From: an uncultured Bdellovibrionales bacterium
Lineage (GTDB): Bacteria > Bdellovibrionota > Bdellovibrionia > Bdellovibrionales > UBA1609
Direction: 5' to 3'
DNA length: 64,000 nucleotides
NCBI GenBank assembly: GCA_903833275.1
Contig: CAILEP010000006.1
Coordinates: 1 to 64,000 of the forward strand
Numbering within the stretch: position 1 is the first letter of the stretch; each line of letters starts with the position of its first letter. A program made the translations under genes and the position numbers. The notes below the pieces were generated by a model that saw nothing but the letters and a program-made list of their open reading frames with translations, was not told where the DNA came from and did not search any database. Below are positions 5,160-59,899 of this stretch, piece by piece.

Positions 5160-6548
5160 TTGAATTTTCACGAACTTTGGATTCAAATTAAGCAGAATAT
5201 CATCTCGAAGAACCATCAAAATCAGCCTTTGATTATGTGGTTTAACCAGACGGAGTATTTAGGCCTTGAAGCAGACGCTAATGAGGCGGGCTTCGTGTTT
5301 AAGCTGAGCGTACCCTCAGCTTTGCATCAATATTGGATCTCGCAAAATTTACTTGAAACAATTTCATCTGAAATATCATCGGTTTATGAGCACCCCTTTC
5401 ATATCGAACTGGTTGTCGTAAAACCTGATCAGTCCAAAAACGATGAAGTTCTTGTTGAAACTGTTGAAGCCGTTAATCAGGTTAACTCTGCCCCTAGGGT
5501 GTCACACAACACAGCTAGAGAGATGTTAAACCCTGAATACACGTTTTCGACCTTTGTGGTGGGCAGGAACAACGAATTTGCCCACGCCGTATCATATAGT
5601 ATTGCCAAAAGACCTGGGGCTGAGAACTATAACCCGCTCTTTATATGTGGGCCGACCGGGATGGGTAAAACCCACCTTTTGAACGCAGTTGGCAACCATA
5701 TTCGCGAACAATACCCCCAGATGTCGATATGTTACTGCTCAGCTGAGCGTTTTTTAAATGACTTTATTTCAAGTATCCGCCGCCACGAAATGGCCCGATT
5801 TCGTCAAAAATACCGAGAAAAATGCGACATTCTACTAATGGATGACATCCAGGTGCTTGGCCGTGGCGATGCTGTACAAGAAGAATTTTTTCATACCTTG
5901 AATGAATTTTTCGAAAAAGGTCAGCAAGTTATTGTGGCTAGCGACCGGATGCCCAAAGATATTAAGAATCTCGAAGACCGAATTCGTACCCGCCTCGAGT
6001 GGGGCCTAATTGCCGATATCCAAATGCCCGATCTTGAAACCAGAATCGCTATCTTACGTTATAAGGCCGAGCGTCGGGGTATTTCACTTAGCCCAGATAT
6101 CGCAAGTTATATTGCACGTATATCAAAAACCTCAATTCGCAAGCTTGAAGGCAACCTAAATAAAATTAAAATGTTCGCAGAACTTCAGGGCGTACCCATT
6201 TCTTTAGAATTAGCTCGAAAAATCTTAGCCACTCATGATGATACAAAAAATCTAACTATAGAAGATGTCCAAAAAATTGTAGCCGACCACTACAAAGTTA
6301 GAGTTGTTGATCTAAAAGCACGATCTCGCACTCAGCCACTCGTAACTGCGCGTCAGATATCTATGTATTTGGTCAAAAAACATCTCGACAAATCGCTGGT
6401 TGAAATTGGCCGATCTTTTGGTGGCAAAGATCATTCGACAGTTATTAACGCTTTACGAAGAGTCGAAGATCAACTGGCGGCGAACCCTGATATCAAGAAT
6501 GATTTCAATGAAATAGAGAACAGAATCCACAATCTCACAGGGGTGTGA
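5160..6548 (+). CDS. dnaA: Chromosomal replication initiator DnaA
   Basis: AAA+ ATPase that binds DnaA boxes, melts oriC and loads the helicase. The 462 residues divide into domain I (about 1-85), a short linker, the AAA+ domain with Walker A GPTGMGKT at 164-171 and Walker B LLMDDIQ at 225-231, and domain IV with the DNA-binding signature FGGKDHSTVINALRR near 420-434. The start is a TTG at 5160 directly after the purine-rich ribosome binding site; the alternative ATG codons would cut domain I. The next genes (dnaN, recF, gyrB, gyrA) complete the classical origin cluster. Confidence 0.98.
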   Translation: MNFHELWIQIKQNIISKNHQNQPLIMWFNQTEYLGLEADANEAGFVFKLSVPSALHQYWISQNLLETISSEISSVYEHPFHIELVVVKPDQSKNDEVLVETVEAVNQVNSAPRVSHNTAREMLNPEYTFSTFVVGRNNEFAHAVSYSIAKRPGAENYNPLFICGPTGMGKTHLLNAVGNHIREQYPQMSICYCSAERFLNDFISSIRRHEMARFRQKYREKCDILLMDDIQVLGRGDAVQEEFFHTLNEFFEKGQQVIVASDRMPKDIKNLEDRIRTRLEWGLIADIQMPDLETRIAILRYKAERRGISLSPDIASYIARISKTSIRKLEGNLNKIKMFAELQGVPISLELARKILATHDDTKNLTIEDVQKIVADHYKVRVVDLKARSRTQPLVTARQISMYLVKKHLDKSLVEIGRSFGGKDHSTVINALRRVEDQLAANPDIKNDFNEIENRIHNLTGV

Positions 6549-6795
6549 ATAGCTGATGTGTATAAACCTGTGCACAACTGTGTGGGTTAAATTGTGAATA
6601 GCTTTTAACCACGTTTTCGGACCTCGGCCCTTGATCGCACAGCTAAAATTATCCACGTCGAATTTTTAATGATTTTAATGATTTAAAGGCAAAAACACGT
6701 TATCAACGTCCCTAGTACTACTACTGTTATTTAATTAATAAAAATAATAGAAATAAGACTCTTAATAAAAATGAACCAAGAATTTGTGGGTCAAT
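6544..6795. other. oriC: Probable replication origin (oriC): DnaA-box cluster in the dnaA-dnaN gap
   Basis: The gap after dnaA holds several DnaA-box-like 9-mers. On the minus strand: CTATTCACA at 6544-6552 and 6593-6601 (one mismatch to TTATNCACA), TTATACACA at 6557-6565 (perfect), TTGTGCACA at 6569-6577 (one mismatch). On the plus strand: TTATCCACG at 6649-6657 and TTATCAACG at 6700-6708. A strongly AT-rich segment follows (about 6730-6780). Genes to the left are on the minus strand and the replication genes to the right on the plus strand, as expected around an origin. GC-skew was not computed. Confidence 0.75.
6700..6732 (+). other. Candidate DnaA-trio unwinding element next to a DnaA box
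   Basis: A DnaA-box-like 9-mer (TTATCAACG, 6700-6708) is followed by a short GC-containing spacer and then by trinucleotides CTA-CTA-CTG-TTA-TTT from 6718. Read on the complementary strand 3' to 5' this gives GAT-GAT-GAC-AAT-AAA, close to the DnaA-trio pattern described at the Bacillus subtilis origin, where DnaA oligomerises on one strand. The AT-rich stretch follows directly. The assignment is by pattern only. Confidence 0.6.
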
Positions 6796-7914
6796 ATGAA
6801 AATAAAAATTAGTAAGCCTGATTTATTAAGCCTCGTAGCCAAGACACAAAACATCGTTGAACGAAGAAGCACCATGCCTGTGCTAATTAATATTCTACTC
6901 GATGCTCAAAAAGATAAATTGAAAGTCTTCGCCACTAATCTCGAAGTCAGTTTAACAGACGAGGCCCCTGCAGAAATTTTGACGGCTGGTAGAGTAGCCG
7001 TTAACGCCAAGAATCTTTTTGATATCGTAAAAGAATTGCCTGACGGCGAAATGCTTTTAACAAAACAAGATAATAATTGGCTGAAAATTACTCAAGGCAC
7101 CTCAGTTTTTAATATCGTAGGTATTAGCCCTGACGAATATCCTGTCTTCCCGACCCACGCCAAACAAGAATCTATGCAAATCGATGCTAAAGTATTAGCC
7201 GACATGATTGGCAAAACAATCTACAGCGTTTCAAACGACGATACTCGTTATCACCTGAATGGTGTTTATTTTGAAAAACGATTATCGGGAGCATCAGGTT
7301 CAAGCCTTTTAATGGTGGCAACTGACGGGCATCGATTGAGTTTGATAAATCGTGAAGGTATTGGAGCAAGTGCGAGCGTACCAGAAGGAGTTATAATCCC
7401 GAGAAAAGGTCTCGTCGAAATCTATAAATTACTTGAAAATGTCGAAGGTAAATTTGGTATGGCCATCGAAGGCCCTCAACTGATTGTTACCCATAAAAAC
7501 ACAGTTTTGATGATTCGATTAATTGAGGGTAAATATCCCAATTATCGACAGCTTATTCCACAAAATCTAAGTGAACATGTGAAAGTAAATCGTGAAGCCT
7601 TGCTTGCGTCACTTCGAAGGGTGTCTTTGCTTTCAAATCAAAAATCAAAAGGCGTCACGCTCAGTTTTTCGAACGGTCGTTTAGAAATCACTTCTAATAA
7701 CCCGGAACTTGGTGACGCAAAAGAAGAACTAGAAATTGATTACAAAGGCACAGGCCTTAAAATCGGTTTTAATGCCAAGTACATCATGGATGTTCTTACT
7801 AGTATTGAAGACGAAGACATTGCAATGGATCTTAAAGATCAATTGTCTCCCGGCGTAATGCGGCCCAATGCCGACAAGGATTACACTTGTGTTATTATGC
7901 CTATGAGAATTTAG
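6796..7914 (+). CDS. dnaN: DNA polymerase III sliding clamp, beta subunit
   Basis: Ring-shaped processivity factor that tethers DNA polymerase III and many partners to DNA. The 372-residue chain has the normal length and ends with the characteristic C-terminal VIMPMRI (consensus MPMRL). Internal family segments such as RYHLNGVYFE and ATDGHRLS are present. I place the start at the ATG at 6796 (MKIKISKPD); an in-frame TTG 12 nt upstream would add only four residues. It lies downstream of the putative oriC and 10 nt before recF. Confidence 0.97.
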   Translation: MKIKISKPDLLSLVAKTQNIVERRSTMPVLINILLDAQKDKLKVFATNLEVSLTDEAPAEILTAGRVAVNAKNLFDIVKELPDGEMLLTKQDNNWLKITQGTSVFNIVGISPDEYPVFPTHAKQESMQIDAKVLADMIGKTIYSVSNDDTRYHLNGVYFEKRLSGASGSSLLMVATDGHRLSLINREGIGASASVPEGVIIPRKGLVEIYKLLENVEGKFGMAIEGPQLIVTHKNTVLMIRLIEGKYPNYRQLIPQNLSEHVKVNREALLASLRRVSLLSNQKSKGVTLSFSNGRLEITSNNPELGDAKEELEIDYKGTGLKIGFNAKYIMDVLTSIEDEDIAMDLKDQLSPGVMRPNADKDYTCVIMPMRI

Positions 7915-29838: not shown

Positions 29839-30096
29839 ATGAAATCCATAAAAGAAATTATGAGTGAACTAGGCTTTAACGCAGATGCGCCGTTAGACAC
29901 CCAGAAGGCATTTTTCAAGAACTTAGTCGCGGCGGCGAATGCAACCGCGCCTTTTTCACAACACAAAACGCAAATAATCCCGACGATGGTCGAGAAAAAA
30001 GCGTCGGAACCGACACCGGCACCAATTAAGAAACAAAAAACACCAGTGCCCGAGCAACTCGCGTTCGACTTCGCATCTATCAATCGCGTCTCTTGA
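29839..30096 (+). CDS. Small hypothetical protein with possible sliding-clamp motif
   Basis: 85 residues from the ATG at 29839, with AGAGGG upstream. I do not recognise the family. The N-terminal 40 residues are likely helical (MKSIKEIMSELGF); the middle is Pro/Lys-rich and probably disordered; near the C-terminus EQLAFDF resembles the QxxLxF-type peptides that bind the beta clamp. An in-frame extension upstream to 29746 exists but reads through the inverted repeat region and has no ribosome binding site. Downstream, an inverted repeat and a protease gene follow. Confidence 0.55.
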   Translation: MKSIKEIMSELGFNADAPLDTQKAFFKNLVAAANATAPFSQHKTQIIPTMVEKKASEPTPAPIKKQKTPVPEQLAFDFASINRVS

Positions 30097-59522: not shown

Positions 59523-59899
59523 AAAGACCTCCGAGGCTATCTATTCTATCGGCTAAAGAAGCGAAATCATTTAGACCAAACGGCCAGGCTCTCATTCTGA
59601 TACGATTTGACGTCCCAAAATAAGACGGGGTTGCAATGGCCGCTCATTTCGTGCAGTAATAAGGGGGTTGACAAACCTTGTCGGTACTCGCTAGACATGG
59701 AGCTGTCTTTCAAGGGGATACCAGAAATACCCGTACGTACAATACGCCGCGAGCGCCCAATAGGGCGGGTTTTAGACAATAATTTTTAGCTTTAGATAAT
59801 AAATAAAAATAAAATAATAAAATATAAGACGGGCTTTGTGCCTGCAAAAATAAACAAATAAAACAATAAAACCCATACAACCTAAAATAGAGAGTGCGA
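59523..59899. promoter_or_regulatory. Non-coding rho leader region
   Basis: About 377 bp without a gene. It should hold the PilZ promoter (minus strand) and the rho promoter and leader (plus). A candidate -35 TTGACA lies at about 59668. A 5-bp hairpin CGCCC-AATA-GGGCG (59754-59767) is followed by GGTTTTA, a possible attenuator. The stretch 59770-59885 is very AT-rich and holds no coding potential. rho genes often have long autoregulated leaders, which would fit. Confidence 0.4.

Follow-up and report, generated by a model that had tools for sequence, protein, structure and literature searches.

Does the gap between dnaA and dnaN in this genome hold the chromosomal origin, and by what kind of element would the duplex be opened there? 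The window, i.e., the whole 64,000-nucleotide stretch analyzed here, covers the first part of a 366,382-bp contig belonging to a 3.08-Mb assembly of an uncultured Bdellovibrionales bacterium, and a first-pass annotation made from its letters had read positions 6544–6795 as an oriC-like region with DnaA boxes and a DnaA-trio-type element.

Gene Context, GC Skew and the DnaA Protein

Family matches placed mnmE and yidC on the minus strand, followed on the plus strand by dnaA, dnaN, recF, gyrB and gyrA. Between yidC and dnaA lie rnpA-like and rpmH-like frames, whose names come from gene order alone; no NCBIfam model matched the rnpA-like frame. The two genes that border the gap are:

5160–6548, plus strand: dnaA, 462 aa, TTG start (TIGR00362 DnaA, 472.7 bits, cut-off 343.9)
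6796–7914, plus strand: dnaN, ATG at 6796, alternative TTG at 6784 (TIGR00663, 331.5 bits, cut-off 137.65)

The cumulative GC-skew minimum of the contig was found at 7250, with just 6.5 kb of contig to its left. In two relatives the minimum falls inside dnaA itself, at 30000 in genome G005 and at 454001 in genome G029, where 10 of 10 bins are negative to the left and 10 of 10 positive to the right. The skew switch, proposed at first pass as a check on the origin reading, is therefore found where an origin at this place predicts it.

In an alignment with the B. subtilis DnaA taken from the BUS structure 8btg, residues E196, N200, I203, R215, E242 and R278 of the protein correspond to E183, N187, I190, R202, E228 and R264, for which roles in base capture, ssDNA binding and oligomerization/arginine finger are described (PMC10721633). 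B. subtilis N196, K222 and E223 are replaced by H209, G236 and D237. DnaA is present in 55 of 59 relatives, in 104 of 106 class genomes and in 154 of 156 phylum genomes, the latter two sets having completeness limits of 90 and 95%, respectively. Besides the main dnaA, second, diverged DnaA-like matches (25–32% identity) were seen in G078 (contig 93), G092 (contig 1, near 2346888) and G002 (contig 381); the copy in G092 contains stop codons.

The Gap Carries a Cluster of DnaA Boxes With a Split Polarity

With up to two mismatches to TTATCCACA, eight boxes were counted in 6549–6795, where shuffled sequences gave a mean of 1.06 and none of 500 dinucleotide shuffles reached eight, which confirms the cluster of DnaA-box-like sequences seen at first pass; it is the densest 247-bp stretch in the whole contig. 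For three-mismatch boxes in the same interval the excess was absent (10 vs 7.31 expected, 77 of 500 shuffles being as high). The boxes of the locus are:

6523–6531, plus strand: DnaA-box-like GAATCCACA, within the dnaA 3′ end, 2 mismatches
6544–6552, minus strand: DnaA-box-like CTATTCACA, overlapping the dnaA stop codon, 2 mismatches
6557–6565, minus strand: DnaA box TTATACACA, 1 mismatch
6569–6577, minus strand: DnaA-box-like TTGTGCACA, 2 mismatches
6581–6589, minus strand: DnaA-box-like TAACCCACA, 2 mismatches
6593–6601, minus strand: DnaA-box-like CTATTCACA, 2 mismatches
6605–6613, plus strand: DnaA-box-like TTAACCACG, 2 mismatches
6649–6657, plus strand: DnaA box TTATCCACG, distal (R5M-like) box of the trio-side pair, 1 mismatch
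6700–6708, plus strand: trio-proximal DnaA box TTATCAACG (R1-like), 2 mismatches, aligned gap-free over 81 loci

In the window, the boxes of the dnaA-proximal half point away from the opening site and those of the trio-side half towards it. The same split was found in the class set, which comprises 81 loci from 58 genera, window included (52 + 30 sequences minus L052, which is without dnaN). Over all the sets read, in this class and in others, dnaN was out of reach in L052, in L188, L189, L193 and L196, and in L233, L236, L237, L239 and L241, which were left out; G002, G003 and G004 were left out of the gap reading because their dnaA is broken off at contig ends. Among boxes with up to one mismatch in the 81 loci, 83 reverse boxes lie within 40 bp downstream of the dnaA stop, and the forward ones lie mainly 40–160 bp after it. 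Counted between box starts, a forward box (at least 7/9) precedes the trio-proximal one by exactly 51 bp in 56 of the 81 loci, which leaves 42 bp between the two trio-side boxes.

The last box, placed at 6700–6708 at first pass, indeed reads TTATCAACG there. This trio-proximal box is weak in many relatives and has up to two mismatches in just 42 of the 81 loci. Reading the window sequence by eye, we found no tandem second box with up to four mismatches abutting 6700–6708. Two loci, L034 and L194, have two head-to-tail boxes (TTATCCAC-TTATCCAC) abutting the trios, which is the tandem arrangement of B. subtilis and differs from the single proximal box of the window.

A Seven-Triplet Trio Array Leads Into an AT-Rich Element

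Downstream of the proximal box follow, in this order:

6709–6711, plus strand: GC-rich spacer TCC, 3 bp (CCC, GCC and similar in relatives)
6712–6732, minus strand: DnaA-trio array of 7 triplets, CTA GTA CTA CTA CTG TTA TTT on the top strand
6726–6790, no strand assigned: AT-rich DNA-unwinding element, 88% AT in the 50 bp from 6726, low duplex stability

The strand that would be bound reads 3′-GAT CAT GAT GAT GAC AAT AAA-5′, and all seven trios have a middle T on the top strand, i.e., a middle A on the trio strand. The first-pass annotation had given CTA-CTA-CTG-TTA-TTT at 6718–6732; its letters stand, and its extent was too short, since the in-frame array already starts at 6712. The AT-rich stretch that it had placed after the trios is present as well: among 366,333 windows, the 50-bp one that starts at 6726 is the 18th least stable as a duplex, and the third least stable place in the contig begins at 6726–6727. 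The lowest-stability 50 bp of the contig start at 59778, within 59727–59830, a segment that is probably the leader of the frame directly downstream, which by eye resembles Rho (transcription terminator).

The published BUS rule asks for a box with up to two mismatches, a spacer of 0–16 and at least three NAN trios (PMC8287927). The window, with TTATCAACG at two mismatches, a spacer of 3 and seven trios, falls under this rule. By itself the rule is unspecific: with overlapping frames included, it gives 257 box-plus-trio matches in the contig. The combination of a box and a following CTACTACT is seen a single time there, at this site.

The Trio Array Is the Best-Conserved Part of the Gap

The 81 loci of the class set could be aligned without gaps from the upstream box via the trio-proximal box to the trios, and 79 of them have at least two exact CTA trios. 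The array lies 160–163 bp from the dnaA stop in 65 loci, the dnaA-dnaN gap itself ranging from 185 to 565 bp. Over the 58 genera, the trio columns hold 1.53 bits each, the proximal box 0.69, the AT-rich part 0.67 and the non-motif parts of the gap 0.18–0.31, so that the trio array is by far the best-conserved part of the gap and the conservation of the trinucleotides in relatives, which the first-pass annotation had named as a check, is borne out. A run of at least three NTN triplets, in any frame, was found in 69 of the 81 loci, and the full BUS rule holds in only 36, since many loci have a degenerate proximal box and some trios differ in their middle base.

The sample from other classes consisted of 20 loci, 16 of them with dnaN in reach. 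Seven of these 16 have a CTA-type array by a box, and L192 has a degraded array. In none of the eight loci of family f12 (L179–L186), from another class, were CTA-type trios found beside a box; most of the eight have a TATAATATATA-like stretch shortly after the last box, which may be a diverged opening site. In L189, L193 and L196, also from other classes, dnaN is absent within about 1 kb downstream of dnaA, which suggests that the origin context has changed or that dnaA has moved.

Natural Changes in the Trios Follow Base-Capture Chemistry

In the structure of the B. subtilis BUS, bases one and two of every trio are captured, with Asn187 holding the middle base via its amino group; both in vitro and in vivo, C can stand in for the middle A, and G and T are tolerated much less (PMC10721633). 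We counted changes by parsimony over four trios on a DnaN tree with 114 of 116 loci (two had a short DnaN). On the top strand, the middle base changed from T to G 18 times, from T to A 10 times and from T to C twice, whereas in 13 T-rich control columns T changed to A 121 times, to C 38 times and to G 37 times. T to G, which is A to C on the bound strand, is thus enriched at the middle base compared to the controls (p = 7e-6), counts that come from an approximate tree under parsimony, a frame chosen by score and unlike sequence contexts.

At the first trio base, 9 of 14 changes were C to T, and at the third 10 of 17 were A to G. Transitions are therefore scarce at the middle base (2 of 30) compared to the other two trio bases (19 of 31; p = 7e-6). 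The depletion of T to C at the middle base relative to the control columns was not significant (2 of 30 vs 38 of 196, p 0.12), and both T to C cases (L160 and L176) sit in doubtful frames. T to A (A to T on the bound strand), disfavored in the assays, is still seen 10 times. A first count had omitted six of the 116 loci with unclear anchors (L024, L153, L159, L161, L176 and L240) and still included misframed TAA triplets (g91 and g92). When the middle base changes in nature, A thus mostly gives way to C and hardly ever to G, which is what the B. subtilis biochemistry predicts.

C-centered trios (CGA on the top strand) occur among the first four trios in 17 of the 114 loci, in several families; the carriers include L151, L155, L158, L160, L161, L165, L166 and L004, the last of which belongs to the genus of the window itself. 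We found no earlier report of C-centered natural trios in the main texts of the open-licence papers searched.

An IHF-Like Element Lies at a Fixed Place Between the Trio-Side Boxes

Between the two trio-side boxes we found one further conserved element:

6673–6685, plus strand: IHF-like element TTTTAATGATTTA, 7/9 to the IHF consensus WATCARNNNNTTR

In the 58 genera, the columns from -27 to -15 relative to the proximal box read W W T Y A R N N N N T T A. The TT is found in 55 and 54 of the 58 genera, the four central columns are uninformative, and the resulting pattern of six informative, four uninformative and three informative columns is the form of WATCARNNNNTTR. The mean IHF score at this place is 7.12 of 9, a value that none of 400 permuted consensi matched at any offset on either strand; a first permutation control with 51 loci was slightly weaker, one of 200 permuted consensi equalling the real one. 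At least 7/9 is reached at the fixed place in 48 of the 58 genera; for the remaining plus-strand offsets the median is 2 genera and the highest count 10. A perfect element is seen in 5 of the 81 loci. We consider it moderately probable that IHF or an IHF-like protein would bind at 6673–6685.

As to subunit genes, the genome itself has an IHF-alpha gene (142.1 bits, cut-off 111), an IHF-beta-like gene below its cut-off (101.9 bits, cut-off 115) and a third HU/IHF-like gene; IHF-alpha matches were obtained in all 59 relatives, 37 of them over the cut-off, and IHF-beta exceeded its cut-off in none of 59 genomes. The site score and the IHF-alpha model score show no relation (rho -0.05, p 0.74, n = 50), so that this test lends no support to the IHF reading.

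Candidates other than IHF fitted the 6673 element less well, with 0.65 of letters for a Fis site, 0.62 for CtrA and 0.52 for an FNR-type site, and a poorer fit than IHF also for a PhoB-like site; for CtrA and FNR-type sites we used what we take to be their consensi. No parS was found near the origin at up to three mismatches.

The element at 6673–6685 could instead be a weak DnaA site or serve another protein, e.g., a lineage-specific regulator; we give this reading a real but lower probability than IHF. It would account for the imperfect copies (7/9 in the window, 6/9 in the probable B. bacteriovorus HD100 locus L202), for consensus position 2, where the expected A is mostly T (T in 37 and A in 18 of the 58 genera), and for the absent link to the IHF-alpha score; C at consensus position 4 is found in just 25 of the 58 genera. 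It leaves unexplained why the column pattern equals WATCARNNNNTTR and why no permuted consensus was as good, and the fit to IHF, at 0.79 of letters, lies above those to Fis, CtrA and FNR-type sites.

Comparison With Known Origins and Other Modes of Opening

The origin of B. bacteriovorus has four DnaA-trios by box 1 with a short GC-rich region between, two boxes within the dnaA 3′ end, and a gap to which DnaA binds both in vivo and in vitro, as footprinted, and which opens in vitro as seen with P1 (Makowski et al., 2016; PMC5124646), so that a trio-type origin was already known for the group. The origin described here resembles it in gene context, in a gap of ~230 bp, in boxes that reach into the dnaA 3′ end, and in the order of box, short GC-rich stretch, DnaA-trios and AT-rich DUE. 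It differs in the proximal box, which is TTTTCCACG in L202 and TTATCAACG in the window. The 232-bp gap of L202 matches the published length, and this locus very probably belongs to B. bacteriovorus HD100. In the text of Makowski et al. (PMC5124646), IHF appears once, in the title of a reference, and an IHF-like site is thus undescribed there.

With the B. subtilis BUS, the locus shares a box, a short spacer, repeated 3′-GAT-5′ trios on one strand and an AT-rich DUE (PMC8287927, PMC6669920, PMC10721633), and also the base-capture residues of DnaA. Unlike that system, the window is without an abutting tandem box and has an IHF-like element and a distal box in fixed phase upstream. A tandem box by the trios was reported for 57% of predicted BUS, single-box BUS being accepted, and BUS were predicted in 1755 of 2070 origins (Pelliciari et al., 2021; PMC8287927).

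The left half of E. coli oriC (R1, IBS1 and R5M) has the order of opening site, box, IHF site and box (PMC10380432), which the locus here would match with its IHF-like element. In both origins, the pair of boxes faces the opening site, and the other half has its boxes in the opposite orientation; the E. coli origin differs in that the CTA-type trio array is a feature of the locus here, that, relative to the boxes, the IHF consensus is found on the other strand, and that the center is displaced by ~4 bp. The spacing is nearly alike, with 46 bp between R1 and R5M in K-12, IBS1 being inside, and 42 bp here, R1, R5M and the IBS1 core having been located by us in the K-12 sequence from their motifs. 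According to Richardson et al. (2019), IHF joined the E. coli origin at a later stage.

This likeness raises the possibility of an opening of the E. coli type, in which DnaA on the boxes would capture a T-rich strand returned by the IHF bend (ssDUE recruitment) and the CTA repeats would be a mere secondary contact or a relic. The box-IHF-box layout with its similar spacing, the fixed place of the IHF-like element and the adjoining AT-rich stretch are what such an opening would lead one to expect. We nevertheless judge it unlikely, since the best-conserved columns are those of the in-frame CTA array and not those of the AT-rich part, the changes in the trios obey the capture rule, and the strand of the IHF consensus relative to the boxes is not that of E. 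coli. That the trinucleotides arose by chance, or belong to a dnaN leader or promoter, with no role in an origin, is very improbable, because, common as a box with three NTN triplets may be (the 257 matches in the contig), a box with CTACTACT occurs once in 366 kb and the place of the array is nearly fixed over 58 genera despite a gap of 185 to 565 bp.

Proposed Course of Opening and Significance

The boxes, the trio array, the skew, the conservation and the DnaA residues together indicate that the region is very probably an oriC with a Bacillus-type BUS. That 6544–6795 is the chromosomal oriC we regard as practically certain, and the first reading of the region as an oriC with DnaA-trios is upheld by the box excess, the skew minimum and the conservation of the trios. 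Opening via the trios is strongly favored by the sequence evidence, and with similar confidence an oriC with a trio-type opening and a probable IHF/HU bend is the best explanation as a whole.

From the place, boxes, trios, conservation, skew, DnaA residues and IHF genes computed here, we infer the following binding of DnaA and IHF, opening and order of events. DnaA would occupy the boxes of both halves, those near dnaA facing away from the opening site and those on the trio side facing it. By analogy with IHF between R1 and R5M in E. coli, 6673–6685 is probably bent by a protein of the IHF or HU type, and the bend would bring the box at 6649–6657 with its DnaA near the opening site. From 6700–6708, DnaA-ATP would then extend over the 3-bp GC-rich spacer onto the lower strand of 6712–6732, with one DnaA protomer per trinucleotide and the first two bases of each trio captured. 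The duplex would thereby open into the AT-rich 6726–6790, where the helicase would be loaded.

As to what is new, this kind of origin is known, while the IHF-like element and the pattern of middle-base changes were met in none of the open-licence papers searched, whose main texts gave no earlier report of an IHF-like site in an origin of the Bdellovibrio group. The chances appear evenly balanced that the origins of the class are composites, with a trio opening site, two boxes in fixed phase and a conserved IHF bend between them, in which C-centered trios work.

The trio-type opening site is extended here from B. bacteriovorus to the whole class, with a very rigid layout, and the changes in the trios allow the nucleobase-capture model to be checked independently, from evolution. 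If the composite reading is true, trios evolve by the base-capture rule, so that C-centered 3′-GCT-5′ trios would work and yet escape searches that ask for a middle A. A 2023 review describes the regulator of initiation as unidentified for the group (PMC11318664). The element at 6673–6685 is a specific candidate site for an initiation factor in the group, and the IHF bend, if real, would be the first named candidate regulator of initiation in these predators.
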